Shown here one piece after another: positions 9,195-25,205 of a DNA stretch of 27,827 nt. Where the stretch lies: IMG/VR virus record IMGVR_UViG_3300042892_004880, positions 1-27,827 of that record; one strand, given 5' to 3'. The notes beneath the pieces are model-generated. The model saw nothing but the letters and a program-made list of their open reading frames with translations, had not been told where the DNA came from and searched no databases. This DNA is from a virus. A program made the position numbers and the translations under genes. Within the stretch, counting starts at the first letter, position 1, and every line of letters begins with the position of its first letter.

Positions 9195-9713
9195 TTAATT
9201 TAATTTATTTTTATCTTTTATTATATCTTCGATTGAAGGTTTTTGATTTTTGAATTTTAATTCTTCTCTAACAGTCATTAGAATTTTACCAAGATGATTT
9301 TCACCTTTATTAGCACATTTTGTACAAATACAAATACCCCAGAATTTATCATGCCACCACGTGCCTTCAATAAGTTCATGACCATCAGTATCAATTAATA
9401 ATTGAGCTAGTTCTTCGTTTTTAAATTTCTCACGAACTCCCCAATTCATTACTTCTATTTTCTTTTCATCCCAACCAGTTCTTAGTTTTATTTTAGAACC
9501 TAATTTTTTAACTTCAGCAGGATTAGAAATTTTAGCAATCATTTCTCTGAAATCACCAGGTGTGAAGTAAGTACCATTTATTAATTGTTGATCATTGACT
9601 TTCATAGCAACATAAAAGTTTTCAACAGATGGGTATGTAATACCTTGGTGTTCTATTTTACAAGGGTAGAAGTTGGATAAGAATCTCCAACGACCTTCAA
9701 ATTTATCAATCAT
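9195..9713 (-). CDS. NADAR-family N-glycosidase (YbiA-like)
   Basis: The start is set at ATG 9713 (MIDKFEGRWRFLSNFYPC). A 14-residue extension to 9755 overlaps the upstream gene and is not part of the fold. NADAR markers are F-L-S-N-F-(Y/S)-P (residues 11-17), the VENFYVAMK helix, and the ending with WWHDKFWGIC, then GENHLGKILMTVRE. NADAR proteins cleave N-glycosidic bonds, acting on riboflavin intermediates (YbiA) or on ADP-ribosylated nucleic acid. Some NADAR proteins remove ADP-ribose from guanine in DNA and neutralise DarT-type toxins. Its place in one operon with a DNA methylase suggests counter-defence here, which is inference. A CICTKC segment precedes the last helix. Confidence 0.88.
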   Translation of the reverse strand: MIDKFEGRWRFLSNFYPCKIEHQGITYPSVENFYVAMKVNDQQLINGTYFTPGDFREMIAKISNPAEVKKLGSKIKLRTGWDEKKIEVMNWGVREKFKNEELAQLLIDTDGHELIEGTWWHDKFWGICICTKCANKGENHLGKILMTVREELKFKNQKPSIEDIIKDKNKLN

Positions 9714-9742
9714 GACTATTATATAAGTTAAATAATTAAAGT

Positions 9743-10075
9743 TTACCAATACCAAGGAGCATCTCTGTAGTTGTCTTCAAAGATTACATTTTCATCACCT
9801 TTCATAATTCGGTGAAGAGATTGTTTAGATTTAGCTCGTTGTGAACGATTAAGCATATTTCTATACCACCAAGGAGCAGTATGATATTTTCCACAATATT
9901 CATTAAAGAATTTATGTTCAAGTCTTTGATTAATATAAACTAATCTACTATTACTTCTATTATTAGAGTATAGTCTACGATATCTTGGAAGAGAATCCCA
10001 TATCAAATCGCGTTCTTTTATAAGAGAGATATATTCTTTTTCTCTTAACCAGTGTTTGTTTGTGTGCTTTGACAT
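9743..10075 (-). CDS. Basic phage protein of unknown function (110 aa)
   Basis: The product is strongly basic and rich in Arg, Tyr, Asn and Trp. It starts MSKHTNKHWLREKEYISLIKE. The centre has RRLYSNNRSNSRLVYINQRL, followed by HTAPWWYRNMLNR and, at the C-terminus, YRDAPWYW. The repeated (T/D)-A-P-W-(W/Y)-(Y/W) motif at residues about 66-72 and 104-110 is unusual and may be a recognition or packing element. No known domain was recognised. It is the first gene after the host-type promoter at 10132 and is expressed with NADAR and the methylase. A nucleic-acid-binding early protein is plausible. Confidence 0.65.
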   Translation of the reverse strand: MSKHTNKHWLREKEYISLIKERDLIWDSLPRYRRLYSNNRSNSRLVYINQRLEHKFFNEYCGKYHTAPWWYRNMLNRSQRAKSKQSLHRIMKGDENVIFEDNYRDAPWYW

Positions 10076-10131
10076 ATTGTAAGTTATTTTTTACTTACAT
10101 ATCTACTCTGTCTCTTAGATTTTTCATAGTA

Positions 10132-10162
10132 CAAATATATATAATTTTTTCAAATTTTCATA
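10132..10162 (-). promoter_or_regulatory. Probable Bacteroidota-type promoter of the NADAR/methylase operon
   Basis: The minus-strand -7 box TATATTTG (10132-10139) is a full TAnnTTTG match. The -33 position 19 bases upstream reads TATG (three of four bases of TTTG). It lies just after the tmRNA terminator and about 57 bases before the ATG at 10075. Confidence 0.55.
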
Positions 10163-10170
10163 AATAAAAA

Positions 10171-10202
10171 AGACCTCACTCCCATTTCAGGAAGTGAGGT
10201 CT
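10171..10202 (-). terminator. Terminator of the tmRNA gene
   Basis: A 10-bp stem AGACCTCACT / AGTGAGGTCT, extended by a C-C/G-G pair, is followed on the minus strand by T6. It ends the tmRNA transcript about 28 bases after the mature 3' end. Confidence 0.88.
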
Positions 10203-10229
10203 AAAAAATCGATATTACTATCGAACTTG

Positions 10230-10609
10230 TGGAGATGACGTTGTACTGCCCAACGTGTCTTTTTCAGTTGTTAATAATTAATCTTTCACAGGCTTAGAAA
10301 GTTTTTATAAACTTACAAACTTTTTACTTTTTTTGAGAGACTCTAATAAGTAACAAAAAACCGTTTCACCCTTTTAGTCCTGTGTGAGACAGGTTGGAGA
10401 ATTTTTTGATAATGAACTGTTGTTAGACAGCCATTAGATCTTCTACCAAGATCATGTTGTTTTGTAGTGCAAATACTAAATCTTCATTGCTAGCTACTTC
10501 ATTTGTTTTGCCATTTACGACTTTACCATCTAATTTGTTAATCGGTCATATGACAACCCGATACCTGCATAACTACCACCACTCTGCAAATCAATTCTGA
10601 GACATCCCC
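10230..10609 (-). ncRNA. ssrA: Transfer-messenger RNA (tmRNA)
   Basis: About 380 nt. Mature ends are set by a 7-bp acceptor stem: 5' GGGGATG (10603-10609) with 3' CATCTCC (10231-10237) then A. It contains the G3-U70 pair that is the alanine identity element; relative to GGGGCTG/CAGCTCC the fifth pair has changed compensatorily. A pseudoknot precedes the tag at 10535-10562 (stem 1 ATCGG/CCGAT, stem 2 TTGT/ACAA). GGTAGTTATGCAGG and TAAAGTCGTAAATGGC align with the corresponding parts of Bacteroidota tmRNAs. The tag frame starts at GGC 10512 and stops at TAA 10423. The stop lies in a small hairpin (CTGT/ACAG), as in E. coli helix 5. A second pseudoknot is at 10366-10393. Odd points are a T-loop GGCAGTA instead of TTCRANY, no encoded CCA (ACAA), and an unusual tag. 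Confidence 0.82.
10423..10512 (-). other. tmRNA tag-peptide reading frame (29 codons)
   Basis: Resume codon GGC at 10510-10512, preceded by AAAGTCGTAAAT as in Bacteroidota tmRNAs. The predicted tag starts GKTNEVASNED, runs through a LVFAL segment and ends VEDLMAV before TAA. Typical tags are 8-20 residues and end in (L/V/F)AA. This one is longer and ends in MAV, so recognition by ClpXP and similar proteases may differ. Confidence 0.65.
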
Positions 10610-10631
10610 GGTGTATTTGTTATTATTTCTA

Positions 10632-10662
10632 CAAATGTATATATAATATACCAAATATCAAA
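10632..10662 (-). promoter_or_regulatory. Bacteroidota-type promoter of the tmRNA gene
   Basis: The -33 box TTTG (10659-10662), 19 bases, then the -7 box TACATTTG (10632-10639), an exact consensus match. The mature 5' end is 23 bases downstream of the -7 box, leaving a short leader for RNase P removal. Confidence 0.82.
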
Positions 10663-10681
10663 AAAGTTTAATAAATTTTAA

Positions 10682-11119
10682 TTAAAAAGGTGTGTTACTA
10701 TCACCTAAACCATCTCCATAGTAAAAACTAAATGTAAGCATTGGTAGACCTTTCTTATCTTCCCATAAATCAAATTCAGAATCATATTGAGCTAGAATAT
10801 CTTTTTTCAATTTATTAGCAACACTAAAGATACTAATAACATCTCTAAGACGTTCTTTTTGATTAAGCATTGCAACTATTTGAATGTCTCCATTATCACT
10901 AGTAACAGTAACATCTATACCAACATTTCTAAACATCTCTCTAAGTAGATATTCTAAATGAGCCATATCATCTTGATTACCATTATCGTCAGAATCATCA
11001 TCATCTGAGTTTAATTTATCATATCCTTCATCTTCATAGTCATCATCATCATCATCATATCCATCGATATAATCGAATCCTTCGCGTTCAAATAGTTGGT
11101 TAAATTTTTTCAGTTTCAT
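10682..11119 (-). CDS. Acidic protein with capsid-targeting-like N-terminus (145 aa)
   Basis: The product begins MKLKKFNQLFEREG, which fits the N-terminal motif shared with the proteins starting at 4818, 12893 and 22106; L-F-E would be the protease site (T4 gp21 cuts after (I/L)-x-E). Residues 16-50 are extremely acidic (GYDDDDDDYEDEGYDKL, then a second Asp run). The C-terminal 90 residues form an alpha/beta domain with VDVTVTSDNGDIQIVAML-type strands. The acidic segment could mimic nucleic acid or bind basic partners. Its ATG overlaps the stop of the peptidase gene by one base (TAATG), so translation is coupled. The tmRNA gene starts 73 bases after its stop, on the same strand but with its own promoter. 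Function unknown. Confidence 0.65.
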   Translation of the reverse strand: MKLKKFNQLFEREGFDYIDGYDDDDDDYEDEGYDKLNSDDDDSDDNGNQDDMAHLEYLLREMFRNVGIDVTVTSDNGDIQIVAMLNQKERLRDVISIFSVANKLKKDILAQYDSEFDLWEDKKGLPMLTFSFYYGDGLGDSNTPF

Positions 11120-12468
11120 TATTTCAATTCTATTTTTATATAGTAACCATCAAAGAAAACATCTTGATTGATTTTATGTCTATTTAATATAACTTGTAAA
11201 TCTGTAAGTGATCGAAAAGCACTTTCTATATCACTATCTTCCATATCACATTGTATAGAAACACCACCACCTTGTTCACCGACAACTTTAATATCTAAAT
11301 CAAAAGGAGATTGTTTTAAGTCATTTATTAATTTACCATGTCTTCTAATAACATCATCATCCAATCCAATCTTTCTAACAGTTGGTAATGAATTCCAATT
11401 TACTTTAATACTAGCTTCTGCTAAACTTTTCAAATAAGTCATATTTTGATACTCATCACCAGTATGCTCATTAAAATAACCTACTGATATATTAGTACAT
11501 TCTGGAATTTGGTCAATAAATGAAGCCGAATCTGTGTAAATACCTGTAGGATCTAGTGATAAATTAAGTCCATTCTTATTATATTGCTCACATAAAGCTG
11601 TTCCAAAATCATTTGAACAACAAACTCTACCCATTTGCTGAGTAATAACTGAATGATAATTTCTTCTATCAAAAGAAACGCATCTTTTAATGTTCTTTAG
11701 GTAATCAACTTGTTCATAAACAGATGATAATAAACCTGAACCAATACCACCTCTTTCTTCTCCAATAAAGAAGTAATAAAGACCCGGTACATTATGAGCC
11801 ATCATATATAACATAACAGCGACTCCTGATTTATCATCAGAACCTAATATAGAATTACCATCTGTAACAATATATTCTTCTTCTTTTTCAATCATTGAAT
11901 AAAGTTTAGTTATCTTTTGTGCTCTATCAGCAGTATCTAAGTGAGATGTAAACATAGTTTCTTGTTTAGGATCTCCAATTATTTTATAATAATTACCAAC
12001 TGTATCTTTTTCTAACTTAGGAAGAAATTGTAAAACTTCATCTTCGTGGCCATGTGGATATGTTTTAGTAACCAATGATAAGAAAGTACTTCTAACATCT
12101 TTAGGCTTATAAACAAAATCTTCAGGTTTAATAAGATTACCATCAATTGGTTCACCATTTTTAGTAGAATTATAAATTCTAATAAACTGTTTAACATCAG
12201 CAGGTGATAATAAATTCTTAAAATAGTATTGAATAAACTTTTCAATTTTCATAGGCACTACTTTACCATCTATAGTAACATCAAATGAACCAGATGTCTC
12301 TGAAACATCAACACTACTTATTTTTAGACCATTGAAGTATTTAGCGCCACTTTCATTTAACCAAAGAAGTTCAAATGCAACATAATTGTTATCATCTTCT
12401 AAGTCTTTAAGAATAGATTCTAGTTCTTTAGTATAAGTTACTCTAATTGATTCTTTTTCTTCTGCCAT
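11119..12468 (-). CDS. Zinc metallopeptidase of the M20/M28/M42 type
   Basis: A 449-residue product. Residues 126-350 carry the co-catalytic zinc peptidase pattern in order: FTSHLDTAD (His176, Asp178), ILGSDDKSG (Asp211, bridging), FFIGEERGGIGS (Glu237 base, Glu238 ligand), a SFDRRN Asp (267), and VGYFNEHTGDEY (His335). These enzymes are aminopeptidases or dipeptidases acting on peptide N-termini. Residues 1-120 and the last about 90 residues are outside the peptidase core; the latter (VVGEQGGGVSIQCDMEDSD) may be a substrate or oligomer domain. All five metal ligands appear intact, so it should be active. It follows a late-type box and is coupled to the acidic protein downstream. The substrate is unknown; peptide recycling or processing of cleaved head peptides is speculation. 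Confidence 0.85.
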   Translation of the reverse strand: MAEEKESIRVTYTKELESILKDLEDDNNYVAFELLWLNESGAKYFNGLKISSVDVSETSGSFDVTIDGKVVPMKIEKFIQYYFKNLLSPADVKQFIRIYNSTKNGEPIDGNLIKPEDFVYKPKDVRSTFLSLVTKTYPHGHEDEVLQFLPKLEKDTVGNYYKIIGDPKQETMFTSHLDTADRAQKITKLYSMIEKEEEYIVTDGNSILGSDDKSGVAVMLYMMAHNVPGLYYFFIGEERGGIGSGLLSSVYEQVDYLKNIKRCVSFDRRNYHSVITQQMGRVCCSNDFGTALCEQYNKNGLNLSLDPTGIYTDSASFIDQIPECTNISVGYFNEHTGDEYQNMTYLKSLAEASIKVNWNSLPTVRKIGLDDDVIRRHGKLINDLKQSPFDLDIKVVGEQGGGVSIQCDMEDSDIESAFRSLTDLQVILNRHKINQDVFFDGYYIKIELK

Positions 12469-12503: not shown

Positions 12504-12893
12504 TTAAACTACTATTTGATATGAATTAGTATAATCAACTTTAACTTGACCATCATTCATACCTGATTCTTTCTTTACAAATCTTTTTTGACAATAAACA
12601 ACAGTTGCTTTATCATCTTTAGAAGCTTTACTATTCTTTTTAGCCAATTGAGCTGCTGCTTTTATAATAGTTTCAGTGGGTAAGTTTTCTCTAACACGAA
12701 TAACAACGTGGCTACCCGGAGTTCCTTTAACGTGAAACCAAATATCTTCTTTATCAGCAACATTAAATGTTAAGTGGTCATTAGATTTAGCATCTTTACC
12801 AACATAAACAACAAATCCATCTATGTCCAATTTTTGAACATTTGGAAACTTATCTTTTTTACTTTCATTAAATGAATTAAATTTCTTTATCAT
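12504..12893 (-). CDS. Stand-alone NFACT-R domain protein (RqcH-type RNA-binding domain)
   Basis: A 129-residue product. Residues 24-120 match the NFACT-R (DUF814) domain: DGFVVYVGKDAKSNDHLTF, then DKEDIWFHVKGTPGSHVVIR, a helix IIKAAAQLAKKNSKASKDDKATVVY, and KKESGMNDGQVKVDY. The G-x-(N/D)-A-x-x-N-D-x-L-T, D-x-W-x-H-x-x-x-x-P-G-S-H-V and V-K-K-x-x-G motifs are diagnostic. In bacterial RqcH this domain works with NFACT-N and a coiled coil in ribosome-associated quality control (alanine tailing on obstructed large subunits); those parts are absent. Stand-alone NFACT-R proteins exist in archaea and eukaryotes. The N-terminus (MIKKFNSFNESKKDK) matches the capsid-targeting-like motif, with F-N-E as possible cut site. 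A TTAATATATAC box lies only 6 bases upstream of the ATG. Confidence 0.9.
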   Translation of the reverse strand: MIKKFNSFNESKKDKFPNVQKLDIDGFVVYVGKDAKSNDHLTFNVADKEDIWFHVKGTPGSHVVIRVRENLPTETIIKAAAQLAKKNSKASKDDKATVVYCQKRFVKKESGMNDGQVKVDYTNSYQIVV

Positions 12894-14724: not shown

Positions 14725-16845
14725 TTAGATGTTTTTGAATCTTTCCATAATTGCAGTAACGTCATTATCAGAAAGTTTATCTTCTTGTATTAAACTTTCA
14801 TGAGCTACTAACTTTTTAGTTACAGATTCATTTGTTTTAAGCTTTCTAGTTAACCAGAAATGCTCAACTTGTGATTCAGTCATTAAAACATCAGCTGGGT
14901 AAAGTCTAGCTTGTGATAAGATAGATTTTTTAGCAGATTCGTTCATTTGACTCCAGATAGCCTTAGTGTTTTCAGGCATTAATCTGATTACTCTTTCTTC
15001 AAGAGATTCATTCTTTGTTGATAGTGCTTCAGAGATTAGACCCAACACATCTTTAGATGTGAAGTAACTTCTTTCGTTTATGTGAAGTTTTACATTGTCT
15101 TGTTCTTCGTTTGTTAAAGCATAATAACTATCTACTTGAGACTTGTTTAAGAATTTTAAGAAATTCAAGTCTGATGTTTCAGAAACTTTACGTTTTTTAG
15201 CTTCTTCTATTAATTTGTCGATTGACTCAGATAATTCAGAATCACTGTTACCAGTTACTTTATAATCATGAGCTTCTTCTTCATTTTCATTTTCTTCTTC
15301 AGTTGAATTAGGACCACAGTCTTCATCTTCTTCTTTATTATAATTTTCTTCTTCGTAAGATGAAGGAACACCATTGTATTCTTCTTCATTTTCTTCTTCA
15401 TTTTCATTTTCATTTTCTTCCATGTTTTCAAAACCAGCAGCTTGTAATGAAGGGAAAGCTTCTTCTTCACCAAATGCCTCATTTAATTTACCAGAATTTA
15501 ATTTTTCAACTATTAATCCTTGGTAGTTAATTGATTTGTCTAGGTTCTCAGCGATATACTCAGAATAAGCAATATTGTCATCTAAATGTTCAGCAATGTA
15601 TTCAGAGTAAGCGATGTTACCTTCAACATGTTCAGCTAAATATTCAGAATAAGCGATTGAATTATCAACGTGTTCAGCGATATACTCACCGTAAGCAATA
15701 CTTTTGTCTAAGTTTTCAGCGATGTACTCAGAGTAAGCGATGTTTTTATCAAGATTTTCAGCTAAATATTCTGAATACTCAATGTTTTTATCTAAATTCT
15801 CAGCTAAATACTCAGAATAAGAAATGTTTTTATCTAAATTCTCAGCGATATACTCAGAATAAGAAATGTTTTTATCAAGATTTTCAGCTAAGTACTCAGC
15901 GTACTCAATGTTCTTGTCTAAATTTTCAGCTAAATACTCAGAGTAGTTAACAGCTTTTTCAAGACTTTCAGCTAAATAGTCATTGTGTTTGATAAGTTTA
16001 TTAGTTGTTTCTTTTAAAGATTTGTTTTCATTAACCATAATTGAGAATTTCTCAGCTAAGTAATCTAAATATTTAACAACTTGAGAGTTTGTAGTATTTA
16101 ACTCTTCATAGTATTCTAATAATTGCTCTAATTTCTTAGGACTCATATTGCCTTTAGAAATTGCGCCTTTAACTTCTTTTTGTGTAGAAGCTAGTTCCTT
16201 AACTAAATACTGAGAGTATTCAGTTAATTGTTCTTTAGTAACAAATTCATTTTTATTCATATTAAATAATTCATTTATTTTTGACTCATCGGACATTTCG
16301 TATATCCTAAAGTTGGAGTTTTCATTATAACCTAATGACTCATTAAGAGATTTGATACTCATTTTAGCTGAAGCAAAACCTGGGTCAGCAACGATATCAT
16401 ATGTAAATAATTTCTTTAATGAAACAGTACCATCTGATTCAGTGATACCTGCAGCTCTTGAAGAAACGAATACTGGACATCCATCATCAACTAATGATTT
16501 AGCCTCTTTTCCCCAATAAGTATTTAATAATTTAATCTCACCACTAACAAGATTTGATTCTTTTACATAAGTAGCTTTTGTGATTATGTGTGATGCTCTT
16601 GAAAGAGATGTATCAAATACATCCGGGTGATCGAATTCACCATAAACAGCACCAAGACTGCTCATTCTCTCATTAAGTTCTTGAAGAGCTGGAAGAAATT
16701 TATCAGCTGTGTAAACTCTTTCGTTACGGTTTTTAACACCAAACTCAGTGAATGTACCATTCATGATATAATCTTTCTTACCTGAACCATTATTCTCTCT
16801 GATAAGAGAGTTTGTCGAATTTTCTACAATTAAAACTGGTTTCAT
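14725..16845 (-). CDS. Prohead protease fused to a repetitive scaffold region (gp21/gp22-like)
   Basis: A 706-residue product. Residues 25-170 are the serine prohead protease: NGTFTEFGVKNRNERVYT, catalytic His73 in GEFDHPD, catalytic Ser128 or Ser129 in PVFVSSRAAG, and DIVADPGF. The His-to-Ser spacing of 55 matches what I recall for T4 gp21. Residues 287-440 are eleven 14-residue repeats of the type (Y)SEYLAENLDKNI(A/S/E), a coiled-coil scaffold-like rod. Residues 474-525 are very acidic (Glu/Asn runs), followed by a helical C-terminus. In T4 the protease (212 aa) and scaffold gp22 are separate. Possible self-cleavage sites of h-N-E type occur at SLNE (169), VNE (273), KLNE (456) and HINE. 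It lies directly upstream of the capsid gene, behind its own late box. Antisense frames over the repeat are shadows. Confidence 0.9.
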   Translation of the reverse strand: MKPVLIVENSTNSLIRENNGSGKKDYIMNGTFTEFGVKNRNERVYTADKFLPALQELNERMSSLGAVYGEFDHPDVFDTSLSRASHIITKATYVKESNLVSGEIKLLNTYWGKEAKSLVDDGCPVFVSSRAAGITESDGTVSLKKLFTYDIVADPGFASAKMSIKSLNESLGYNENSNFRIYEMSDESKINELFNMNKNEFVTKEQLTEYSQYLVKELASTQKEVKGAISKGNMSPKKLEQLLEYYEELNTTNSQVVKYLDYLAEKFSIMVNENKSLKETTNKLIKHNDYLAESLEKAVNYSEYLAENLDKNIEYAEYLAENLDKNISYSEYIAENLDKNISYSEYLAENLDKNIEYSEYLAENLDKNIAYSEYIAENLDKSIAYGEYIAEHVDNSIAYSEYLAEHVEGNIAYSEYIAEHLDDNIAYSEYIAENLDKSINYQGLIVEKLNSGKLNEAFGEEEAFPSLQAAGFENMEENENENEEENEEEYNGVPSSYEEENYNKEEDEDCGPNSTEEENENEEEAHDYKVTGNSDSELSESIDKLIEEAKKRKVSETSDLNFLKFLNKSQVDSYYALTNEEQDNVKLHINERSYFTSKDVLGLISEALSTKNESLEERVIRLMPENTKAIWSQMNESAKKSILSQARLYPADVLMTESQVEHFWLTRKLKTNESVTKKLVAHESLIQEDKLSDNDVTAIMERFKNI
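15526..15987 (-). repeat. Eleven tandem 42-bp repeats within the protease-scaffold gene
   Basis: In-frame repeats coding a 14-residue unit with consensus YSEYLAENLDKNIx (residues 287-440). Units vary at synonymous positions and at L/I and N/H, so they are old duplications kept by selection. Hydrophobic residues at Y1, Y4, L5, L9 and I13 give a heptad-like spacing. Confidence 0.9.
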
Positions 16846-17426: not shown

Positions 17427-19307
17427 ATGATAGAATTAAAAGAAGGTGATGTTTACGAAGGACAAATTGAGTTCTCAACAAGCGGTAACGCATCACTAGT
17501 AATAAACGAGAAAGAGATTTTCGTTTACAAGAAAAACACGACTAACTCACTACACTTAGATAAAGTAAAAGTTCAGATATTCAAAGCTGAAAAGAAGTTA
17601 GAAGGAAAAGTTATTGAAGTTATTTCAAGATTTAAAACAGAGTTTGTTGGAAAAGTACAAATTGGGAAAAAAACTATATTCGTAGTTCCTGATAGTAATA
17701 AAATACCAGTTGATTTTTATATCAAAGGTGGATTAAAAGCAGAACACGACCAAAAAGTTGTAGTCGAGTTAATAAAGTGGGAAGATACAAAATCACCACA
17801 AGGAAAAATAATTAAAGTTTTAGGAGATTCTGGCGATAACAACGCTGAGATGAATTCAATTATGTTCGAATATGGACTACCTGTTGAATTTCCTCAAGAA
17901 GTTATTAACGAATCAATGTTAGTAGCAGAAGTTATTACCGAAAAGGAAATTTCTTCTCGTAAAGATATGAGAAGAGTTACTACTTTAACAATCGACCCTG
18001 TTGATGCTAAAGATTTTGACGATGCCCTTTCAGTTAATATAATAAGTGATAATAAAATTGAAGTAGGTGTTCACATTGCTGACGTAGGTCACTATGTTAA
18101 ACCAGGAACTAAGTTAGATGATGAAGCTTTCAAAAGAGCTACATCAGTATATTTAGTTGATAGGTGTGTACCAATGTTACCTGAAAGATTAAGTAATGGT
18201 ATTTGCTCATTAAAACCTCACGAAGATAGATTAGCTTTTTCTGTTATCTTTACTTTAGATGGAGATGGTAACATATTAAATACTTGGCAAGGTAAAACCG
18301 TTATTCACTCTGATAGAAGATTTGCTTATGAAGATGCACAAGAAATTATTGAAGGTACAGATGGTGATTATTCAACTGAAATTAGATTACTTGATACTTT
18401 AGCTAGAAAGATTAGAAAGAAAAGAATCAAAGAAGGTTCTATTGAAATGGGTGGTATTGAAGTCAAATTCAAACTAGCCGAAGATAATAAGAAACCAATT
18501 GGTGTTTATTTCAAAGAACAAAAAGAATCTAACAAGTTAATTGAAGAATTTATGTTATTGGCTAACAAGTCAGTTGCTAAAACTTTATCAGAAGCTAGTT
18601 GGGTAAATGTTTATAGAGTTCACGATACTCCAAATATGGAGAAGTTAAATGCTTTAGTTGGTGTTTGTAAAACTTTTGGATATGATATAGAGATATATGA
18701 TGATTCAACTGAGATTAAAAAATCACTTAATTCTTTATTAAAAGAAATTAAAGATACTCCTGAGGAAAATATGATTGAGACTTTAGTTACTAGATGTATG
18801 TCTAAGGCAACTTACACAATTAAGAACATTGGTCACTATGGTTTAGGATTTACTCACTATTCTCACTTTACTTCACCAATTAGAAGATATCCTGATTTAA
18901 TTACACATAGAATACTACTTGATTTCTTAGATAAGAAAACTCAAGGTAATCCTGGTAAGATTGAAGAACAAGCTAAATGGTGTTCTGCTAGAGAATTGGT
19001 AGCTGCTAAAGCCCAAAGAGATTCAATTAAATACAAACAAGCTGAATATCTTTTAGATAAGATTGGAAAAGTATTTGATGGTATCGTTTCAGGAGTAACT
19101 GATTGGGGTATGTATGTTGAATTGATTGAAAGTAAATGTGAAGGAATGGTTAGATACCAATCACTTGAAGGAAAATGGTCAGCTGATACAGCTAACTATA
19201 CAATAACAAGTGAAAATGGTGAGAAAATCAGATTAGGAGATCCTCTTAAAGTTGTAGTTAAGTCAGTAGACTTAGAAAGAAAACAAATAGATTTTACTTT
19301 ATTGTAA
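17427..19307 (+). CDS. rnr: Ribonuclease R (RNB-family 3'-5' exoribonuclease)
   Basis: A 626-residue enzyme that degrades RNA processively from the 3' end, including structured RNA. Residues 1-130 are OB/cold-shock-like. The RNB domain starts with LTIDPVDAKDFDDALS (catalytic-site Asp190, Asp196, Asp198, Asp199), followed by GVHIADVGHYV, SVYLVDRCVPMLPERLSNGICSL and, further on, HYGLGFTHYSHFTSPIRRYPDLITHR. The last 65 residues are an S1 domain (GKVFDGIVSGVTDWGMYVEL). It is shorter than E. coli RNase R (813) because the N-terminal HTH and the C-terminal basic tail are absent. In bacteria RNase R acts with tmRNA-SmpB to remove nonstop mRNA. The next gene starts on the base after its stop codon. 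It lies between the protease and portal genes on the opposite strand. Confidence 0.95.
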   Translation: MIELKEGDVYEGQIEFSTSGNASLVINEKEIFVYKKNTTNSLHLDKVKVQIFKAEKKLEGKVIEVISRFKTEFVGKVQIGKKTIFVVPDSNKIPVDFYIKGGLKAEHDQKVVVELIKWEDTKSPQGKIIKVLGDSGDNNAEMNSIMFEYGLPVEFPQEVINESMLVAEVITEKEISSRKDMRRVTTLTIDPVDAKDFDDALSVNIISDNKIEVGVHIADVGHYVKPGTKLDDEAFKRATSVYLVDRCVPMLPERLSNGICSLKPHEDRLAFSVIFTLDGDGNILNTWQGKTVIHSDRRFAYEDAQEIIEGTDGDYSTEIRLLDTLARKIRKKRIKEGSIEMGGIEVKFKLAEDNKKPIGVYFKEQKESNKLIEEFMLLANKSVAKTLSEASWVNVYRVHDTPNMEKLNALVGVCKTFGYDIEIYDDSTEIKKSLNSLLKEIKDTPEENMIETLVTRCMSKATYTIKNIGHYGLGFTHYSHFTSPIRRYPDLITHRILLDFLDKKTQGNPGKIEEQAKWCSARELVAAKAQRDSIKYKQAEYLLDKIGKVFDGIVSGVTDWGMYVELIESKCEGMVRYQSLEGKWSADTANYTITSENGEKIRLGDPLKVVVKSVDLERKQIDFTLL

Positions 19308-24122: not shown

Positions 24123-25205
24123 ATGCAAAATATCAAATTAGAGTACATTTGGCTAGATGGTTCAAACCCTCAACAAATTAGGTCCAAAACTAAAATTGTT
24201 AACTTAGAAGCTCTTGAAGGAGAAAAAAACGTTTTTGAATCTTTTAAAAACGGAACAAGAAAAGCACCTGTTTGGAACTTTGACGGATCTTCTACTTATC
24301 AAGCAGAAACATCAAAATCAGAATTACTGTTAGTACCGGTTAATTTCTTTCTTCATCCATTAGTTGCTAGAACAATCATTGTATTAGCTGAAGTTTATAA
24401 CACTGATATGACACCACATCACACCAACACAAGAAGAGGTATGATGAATGTTATAGAAAAACATGACGATGAAACAATGTATGGTTTCGAACAAGAGTAC
24501 TTTATCTATGATAATGAAACTAATAAACCATTAGGATGGCCTTCTACACAAGGTTCTTTTCCTAAACCACAAGGTGACTATTACTGTGCTGTAGGAGCTA
24601 ACAATGTTAGTGGAAGAGCATTCGTAGAAGAACACGTTGATCTTTGTTTAGGAGCTGGATTATTAGTATCTGGTATAAACGCAGAGGTTGCTTTAGGACA
24701 ATGGGAATATCAAATTGGTCCTGTACCAGCGGAAGATGGTTCTGACCAACTTTGGGTATCTAGATATCTTCTTTACAGATTGAGTGAAAAGTATAACTAC
24801 CGAATTGAATTAGATCCAAAACCGTTCAAAGGTAGTGATTGGAATGGTTCAGGAATGCACGTTAACTTCTCTACTAAAACAATCAGAGAAGATAAGGAAA
24901 ACAAAAAAGCAATTGCTGAACAAATGTGTAAGAAATTAGAAAAGAAACACAAAGAACACATTGCTATCTATGGTGTTAACAATGAACACAGATTAACTGG
25001 AGCGAATGAAACATCATCTATGGATAAATTTGGATGGGGTATTGGAGACAGAACTAAGTCTATTAGAATTCCATCTTCTATTAATGAAGCAAACGCGGTT
25101 GGTTATATTGAAGACAGAAGACCATCATCAAATGCAGATCCTTATCTAATTGTAGAAAAAATGATTACAACTATTTTAGGAGATTCAGTTCCTGAATTAA
25201 ACTAA
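24123..25205 (+). CDS. Glutamine synthetase, type II (eukaryote-type GSII)
   Basis: A 360-residue enzyme making glutamine from glutamate, ammonia and ATP. Diagnostic segments in order: EYIWLDG (beta-grasp), PVWNFDGSSTYQAE, MYGFEQEYFIYD, VSGINAEVALGQWEYQIGP, WNGSGMHVNFST, NNEHRLTGANETSSMDKFGWGIGDRTKSIRIP and GYIEDRRPSSNADPYLI. Metal-site Glu residues (QEYF, NAEVALGQWE), the HVNFS histidine and ATP/phosphate-site arginines are present, so it should be active. Length and motifs fit GSII rather than bacterial GSI or GSIII. GSII also occurs in some Bacteroidota, a likely source. It stands alone with its own terminator and may keep nitrogen flowing into nucleotide synthesis during infection. Confidence 0.95.
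   Translation: MQNIKLEYIWLDGSNPQQIRSKTKIVNLEALEGEKNVFESFKNGTRKAPVWNFDGSSTYQAETSKSELLLVPVNFFLHPLVARTIIVLAEVYNTDMTPHHTNTRRGMMNVIEKHDDETMYGFEQEYFIYDNETNKPLGWPSTQGSFPKPQGDYYCAVGANNVSGRAFVEEHVDLCLGAGLLVSGINAEVALGQWEYQIGPVPAEDGSDQLWVSRYLLYRLSEKYNYRIELDPKPFKGSDWNGSGMHVNFSTKTIREDKENKKAIAEQMCKKLEKKHKEHIAIYGVNNEHRLTGANETSSMDKFGWGIGDRTKSIRIPSSINEANAVGYIEDRRPSSNADPYLIVEKMITTILGDSVPELN

Follow-up and report, generated by a model that had tools for sequence, protein, structure and literature searches.

Does a 600-base gap in a viral genome fragment hold a tmRNA gene and, if it does, would the RNA work for the phage? tmRNA, the product of ssrA, frees stuck ribosomes with SmpB as its protein partner. The window, which here means the whole stretch of 27,827 nucleotides that was analysed (IMG/VR record IMGVR_UViG_3300042892_004880), is part of the genome of a T4-like phage whose relatives include huge phages of 634-642 kb (Mahaphages, predicted Bacteroidota hosts). 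The T4-type markers are gp23 (capsid) and gp20 (portal), and the closest named relatives are huge phages with predicted Bacteroidota hosts, in keeping with the original prediction of a T4-type phage of Bacteroidota. Bacteroidota hosts are predicted for the Mahaphages of 634 and 642 kb in the account of Al-Shayeb et al. (2020, PMC7162821).

Three other genes of the window may be mentioned in passing. A NADAR-domain protein (9195-9755, minus strand) is a weak match to an anti-phage NADAR family, under the cut-off of that family, and a GlnII-like glutamine synthetase, here in a phage, is encoded at 24123-25205 (plus strand). The protein encoded by the open reading frame at 14725-16845 (minus strand), which adjoins the capsid gene, contains repeats of the type AENLDKNIEYSEYL.

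The locus and its transcription unit

The gap at positions 10076-10681 holds a promoter, an RNA of 380 nt and a strong terminator, all on the minus strand, as are the RNA features described below. Homology to relatives recognized by RF00023 and ARAGORN, together with alignment and covariation, placed the tmRNA gene at 10228-10609. The mature RNA probably runs from GGGGATG, which starts at 10609, to the discriminator A73 that follows CATCTCC at position 10230. The encoded 3' end reads ACA, not ACCA, and the CCA is not encoded. Upstream lies a Bacteroidota-type promoter, TTTG-N19-TACATTTG (10632-10662), in which TANNTTTG is the -7 box; 26 of 43 relatives have the arrangement TTTG-N17-23-TANNTTTG ahead of the RNA, compared to 0.11 expected in shuffles. 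Downstream, a 13-bp hairpin followed by a T-run forms an intrinsic terminator (10171-10202), and a terminator-like hairpin is present downstream of the RNA in 42 of the 43 relatives compared to about 5 expected. A unit at 10171-10662 with its own host-type promoter and terminator had been predicted, and these coordinates were exact.

Distant BLASTN detected the RNA in LR745206.1 (634,780 bp, 79.5%) and LR756502.1 (642,428 bp, 70%), both from uncultured huge phages, and dozens more IMG/VR contigs that carry it emerged when the flanking genes and the tag motif served as scan queries. Identity of the RNA is 80-91% for most of the closer phages, and the adjoining 145-residue protein is often only 45-53% identical. 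Integration at ssrA is common (PMC11915505, PMC9004378), and the locus might be a functionless remnant of a host ssrA gene, acquired by a phage that integrated there. We give this explanation next to no weight: the unit has its own promoter and terminator, the tag is unlike the Bacteroidota host tags examined and the RNA is deeply conserved, with compensatory change, in dozens of phages, a conservation that already contradicts a remnant.

Homology and covariation

The window RNA escaped both standard finders. ARAGORN was negative and Rfam RF00023 gave nothing at gathering scores, with no RF00023 match even at E-values up to 10. On these two results alone the tmRNA finding would have been rejected. 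The best Rfam matches were weak ones to PyrR/PyrG leaders (PyrR, E 0.027), driven by the hairpin and T-run and reflecting no homology. While these results would suit a cis-regulatory or small RNA that is not a tmRNA, such an assignment has a negligible probability; it is already contradicted by a chain of homology, in which the window aligns without a break to RF00023-positive relatives.

The links in that chain are relatives that share the tag core EVxSxEDLVFALxNN. Three of these exceeded the RF00023 cut-off (L056, 65.3 bits; L027, 63.6 bits; L081, 54.1 bits), which is the Rfam gathering score of 47 bits and a detection threshold rather than a biological criterion, membership resting on homology. 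The best RF00023 match among the tag-core relatives had an E-value of 2.8e-23, and L032 fell just under the cut-off at 46 bits. ARAGORN called L027 and L056 as tmRNAs with the tag GNTNEVGSVEDLVFALRNNILKANRLAVA. Their T-arm is canonical (CTGGG TTCGAAT CCCAG) and their CCA end is encoded; the usual 5 bp and TTCRANT are seen in L081 as well. The check with ARAGORN and Rfam proposed for the original prediction was thus negative for the window and positive when extended to its tag-core homologues. A single alignment that includes the RF00023 positives, with shared covarying structure, extends the homology to recognized tmRNAs over the full length of the RNA. Homology and covariation together show, on comparative sequence grounds, that the locus is a tmRNA gene, as predicted. 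RF00023 found nothing above the cut-off in the two 634-642 kb records, LR745206.1 and LR756502.1, so the window-type RNA is their only visible tmRNA.

Covariation was counted in 34 aligned relatives, and the identity elements and the T-arm in 43 sequences. When RNAalifold was given the 34 relatives and no structural plan, it returned the acceptor stem, a long helix 2, stem 1 of pseudoknot PK1, a helix-5-like hairpin, stem 1 of pseudoknot PK4 and the T-stem, with compensatory changes in 30 of 50 predicted pairs. Over 55 counted pairs, 96.2% of pair cells were paired compared to 84.1% in shuffles and 34-45% in slid controls, the latter contrast being overstated because the structure was derived from the same alignment. 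The compensatory counts have a wider basis than that contrast: 31 of the 55 pairs, in 204 cells, changed on both sides, compared to 19.8 and 57.5 in shuffles. None of 500 shuffles reached the observed pairing or compensatory values, and covariation also exceeded that in all slid controls.

The acceptor stem pairs GGGGATG (10603-10609) with CATCTCC (10231-10237), and all seven pairs form in 43 of 43 sequences, with compensatory changes at pairs 5 and 6. Pair 5, singled out beforehand as compensatory, is A-U in 25 sequences, G-C in 6 and G-U in 3. G3-U70 and A73 are the alanine identity elements of tmRNA; pair 3-70 is G-U, as had been read from the window, and position 73 is A in 43 of 43 sequences. 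Helix 2 (5' strand, 10563-10586; 3' strand, 10265-10293) has 18 pairs, 12 of them with compensatory change.

Two H-type pseudoknots had been proposed, and two, PK1 and PK4, were resolved. Compensatory changes support the first stem of each, and the second stems, though present, are weaker. In PK1 (10523-10562; stem 1, ATCGG/CCGAT; stem 2, TTGTCAT/ATGGTAA), stem 1 is 100% paired with three compensated pairs, while stem 2 occurs in a similar register in most relatives and is significant by itself in only 8 of 34 sequences. In PK4 (10295-10314; stem 1, AAGTT/AACTT; stem 2, TAT/CTA), four of five stem 1 pairs are compensatory; stem 2 is paired in 86% of cells and has 3 bp with one mismatch in the window. 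Loss of the acceptor stem and pseudoknots in related phages, which would have spoken against a tmRNA, is not what was seen. The helix-5-like hairpin GATCTT/AAGATC at the tag end (10437-10453) is paired in 86% of cells, with compensatory change in three of five counted pairs. The stop codon was also predicted to lie within a hairpin. In the window it does so, in the loop of GGCTGT-CTAACA-ACAGTT (10415-10432, p 0.10), and in close relatives this hairpin is mostly of 6 bp and at most of 10, but it is not kept across the clade.

The tag and the T-arm

The tag frame extends from the inferred resume codon GGC to GTC (10426-10512), specifies the 29 residues GKTNEVASNEDLVFALQNNMILVEDLMAV and ends at the stop codon TAA (10425-10423). 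A frame with resume and stop codons was found across the 51 tags compared, all of 28-30 codons, with lengths that differ by whole codons only and with A or V as the last residue. The resume codon is GGC, GGA or GAC, in the context TAAAY-GGC. For L027 and L056, ARAGORN has the tag begin at the same Gly codon, and for most Bacteroidota host tmRNAs likewise at Gly or Asp. The host tags that we found are mostly of 9-10 residues (e.g. GENNYALAA and GNTQYAMAA), and 10 is the commonest tag length in the tmRNA database (PMC11915505). Given its 28-30 residues, the phage tag resembles a Bacteroidota tag into which about 20 residues were inserted.

Within the tag frame, the insert forms a hairpin of its own, GTAG..CTAC with inner covarying pairs (10464-10497). 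The inner pairs 132-149 and 133-148 are compensatory in 13 and 11 sequences, respectively; the outer pairs are invariant and partly fixed by the search pattern. The pN/pS ratio of the tag core was 0.26 in frame compared to 0.93 and 1.06 out of frame, for pattern-independent loci only (those found without the tag pattern), as elsewhere the search pattern forces part of the conservation. Outside the tag core, pN/pS showed no difference and no coding signal was seen beyond the RNA's own constraint, and a coding test on the whole tag was not decisive. The tag motif was absent from 18 other SmpB-bearing viral records, several of which are fragments and others members of other clades; the tmRNA, if any, of those other-clade records is not of the window type.

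The T-arm (10238-10256) combines a 6-bp stem, ACGTTG/CAACGT, with a 7-nt loop, GGCAGTA. Canonical tmRNA has 5 bp and TTCRANT at these places, whereas the window lineage has a 6-bp stem and a GGCARTR-type loop. All five aligned T-stem pairs have changed on both sides, and the loops form a graded series from canonical relatives to the window: TTCGAAT, TTCGAT, TTCGTC, TTCGTTA, AGCGATA, TGCAATA and GGCAGTA. The stem grows from 5 to 6 bp in the lineage of the window, and the form with 6 bp and 7 nt occurs in 24 of 43 sequences. The T-arm that closes the tRNA-like domain is therefore present and covarying, in a derived form. Because the loop has departed from TTCRANT and the stem has gained a pair, elbow contacts, T-loop modification and the binding of SmpB and EF-Tu are not assured. 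The series from canonical to re-shaped T-arms, with its SmpB partners, constitutes natural material on the contacts that trans-translation needs.

Drift of the T-loop, the missing CCA and a tag region that is conserved as an RNA hairpin as well would all suit a former tmRNA that now has another structured-RNA role, as scaffold or regulator, and has ceased to be charged or translated. We consider this improbable in view of the invariance of G3-U70 and A73 in 43 of 43 sequences, the in-frame length changes, the retention of resume and stop codons and the co-occurrence with SmpB. Very probably, a huge T4-like phage of Bacteroidota here encodes a one-piece tmRNA that is divergent and functional.

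Partner genes, function and known systems

SmpB (PF01668, E 1e-50 to 3e-55) is encoded in six of the six RNA-bearing records of at least 385 kb and in two shorter ones, and the five SmpB proteins tested all pass the NCBIfam equivalog cut-offs. The records without SmpB are shorter fragments, so its absence there says little. The genes for SmpB, ClpP and a ClpC-like ATPase were located only in relatives, outside the window, which is too short to show SmpB. Across eight phages, the distances for SmpB follow those for the RNA (Mantel r 0.83, p 0.003), a correlation that shows a long shared inheritance and not contact. The suggestion that the phage controls ribosome rescue gains indirect support from the SmpB of its relatives; the RNA might also, as was suggested with it, stand in for host tmRNA that the cell had damaged.

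An inhibitory role was also weighed, in which the RNA acts chiefly by titrating the SmpB of the host or by blocking trans-translation there, and the altered T-arm could indeed yield a non-productive complex. The precedent is the TLD-only RNA of mycobacteriophage DS6A, likewise a phage RNA related to tmRNA, which is thought to act in this way. The DS6A RNA has no tag domain, however, and the window RNA, which retains a complete mRNA-like domain, tag and stop included, does not qualify as a decoy of that type. These phages also bring their own SmpB, which would be pointless if the RNA were a decoy of host SmpB. We therefore think a decoy improbable.

Relatives variously encode further genes that might act on the same path, namely RNase R, a stand-alone NFACT-R protein, ClpP and a ClpC-like ATPase. 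NFACT-R is the domain through which RqcH, an RQC factor, binds RNA. In the window, a stand-alone NFACT-R domain protein (12504-12893, minus strand; PF05670, E=1.7e-17) is encoded on the strand of the tmRNA and about 1.9 kb upstream of it. NFACT-R matches were found in 12 of 13 related records, and in LR745206 and LR756502 the gene lies about 2 kb upstream, also on the same strand. This protein may have a role on stalled large subunits. The gene between NFACT-R and the tmRNA (11119-12468, minus strand) is weakly assigned as a peptidase T-like metallopeptidase (TIGR01883, 9e-9, far under the cut-off). RNase R, an exonuclease linked to non-stop mRNA decay (PMC3949413), is encoded at 17427-19307 (plus strand; TIGR02063 equivalog, 646.8 bits, cut-off 597.9), and RNB was found in 10 of 25 related records. 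ClpP was present in 9 of 13 records, at the equivalog level in LR756502. Up to three ClpP (PF00574) matches per record, along with a ClpC-like double-AAA+ ATPase, were noted in LR745206.1 and LR756502.1 (loci L300, L301 and L306) and in L309. ClpX was rejected as a candidate: matches were weak only, and in the two records checked the protein matched proved to be ClpC-like, an AAA+ protein that has UVR and ClpB_D2-small domains.

The function most likely served by the locus is active trans-translation run by the phage, and we infer, with good indirect support, that the window RNA rescues ribosomes with phage SmpB. The RNA would be transcribed from its own promoter, trimmed and provided with CCA, and the host enzyme would charge it with alanine. 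Where ribosomes had stalled at the end of a broken mRNA, phage SmpB and EF-Tu would carry it into them. Translation would resume at GGC, adding alanine and a 29-residue tag that ends in Met-Ala-Val, and the ribosome would terminate and be recycled. Tagged fragments would pass to a Clp protease (phage ClpP with the ClpC-like ATPase, or that of the host), and RNase R would receive the broken mRNA. The gain would be a pool of free ribosomes during infection, while phage, host and defence nucleases cut mRNA. A more elaborate version, which we put forward tentatively and consider rather doubtful, is a private line of trans-translation: the re-shaped T-arm would pair the RNA with phage SmpB rather than that of the host (or let it escape host T-loop modification or defence nucleases), the long tag would direct peptides to phage ClpP and the ClpC-like ATPase, and phage RNase R would remove the broken mRNA. 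These gene sets suggest that the entire route, from the stalled ribosome to the degradation of its peptide and mRNA, is taken over by the phage in some of the largest phages known.

Compared to the one-piece tmRNA of Bacteroidota, the window RNA has the same elements in identical order: an acceptor stem with G3-U70 and A73, helix 2, PK1, a Gly resume codon, tag and stop, PK4 and the T-arm. It differs in falling below detection by RF00023 and ARAGORN and in having no encoded CCA. The phage tag, of 28-30 residues with an internal hairpin, has ends such as MAV, ATV or AVA, whereas Bacteroidota tags end in LAA or MAA.

Phage-encoded tmRNAs have been described in mycobacteriophages Bxz1 and Wildcat, Bacillus phage G and Melnitz (PMC4131195, PMC9004378). 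The Melnitz tmRNA is in two pieces and accompanied by a glutamine riboswitch, in contrast to the window lineage, which is one-piece and missed by standard finders. Among wider viral contigs from IMG/VR, SmpB is common (80 loci kept, L190-L269), and only 4 of 20 long SmpB-bearing contigs had an RF00023 tmRNA over the cut-off; the others may hide divergent tmRNAs. Two further phage tmRNAs (L286 and L290) have long tags, ANNVVRANRVTRPVALAA and AKVELSTWTVEDALAFVDGEYAVAA. The tag AKVELSTWTVEDALAFVDGEYAVAA of L290 resembles the EDLVFAL core of the window tag. With SmpB and tmRNAs elsewhere in viral contigs, phage trans-translation genes are not unique to the window lineage, and because both standard finders miss this lineage, the ribosome-rescue genes of phages are undercounted.

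tmRNA and SmpB were reported among the genes of huge phages by Al-Shayeb et al. (2020, PMC7162821). The tmRNAs in that work were assigned with ARAGORN, which does not call the window RNA, and an altered T-arm and a structured tag are not described in the passages of its main text that were covered. A phage tmRNA with SmpB is thus already known in huge phages, and the window lineage is a divergent form of it.
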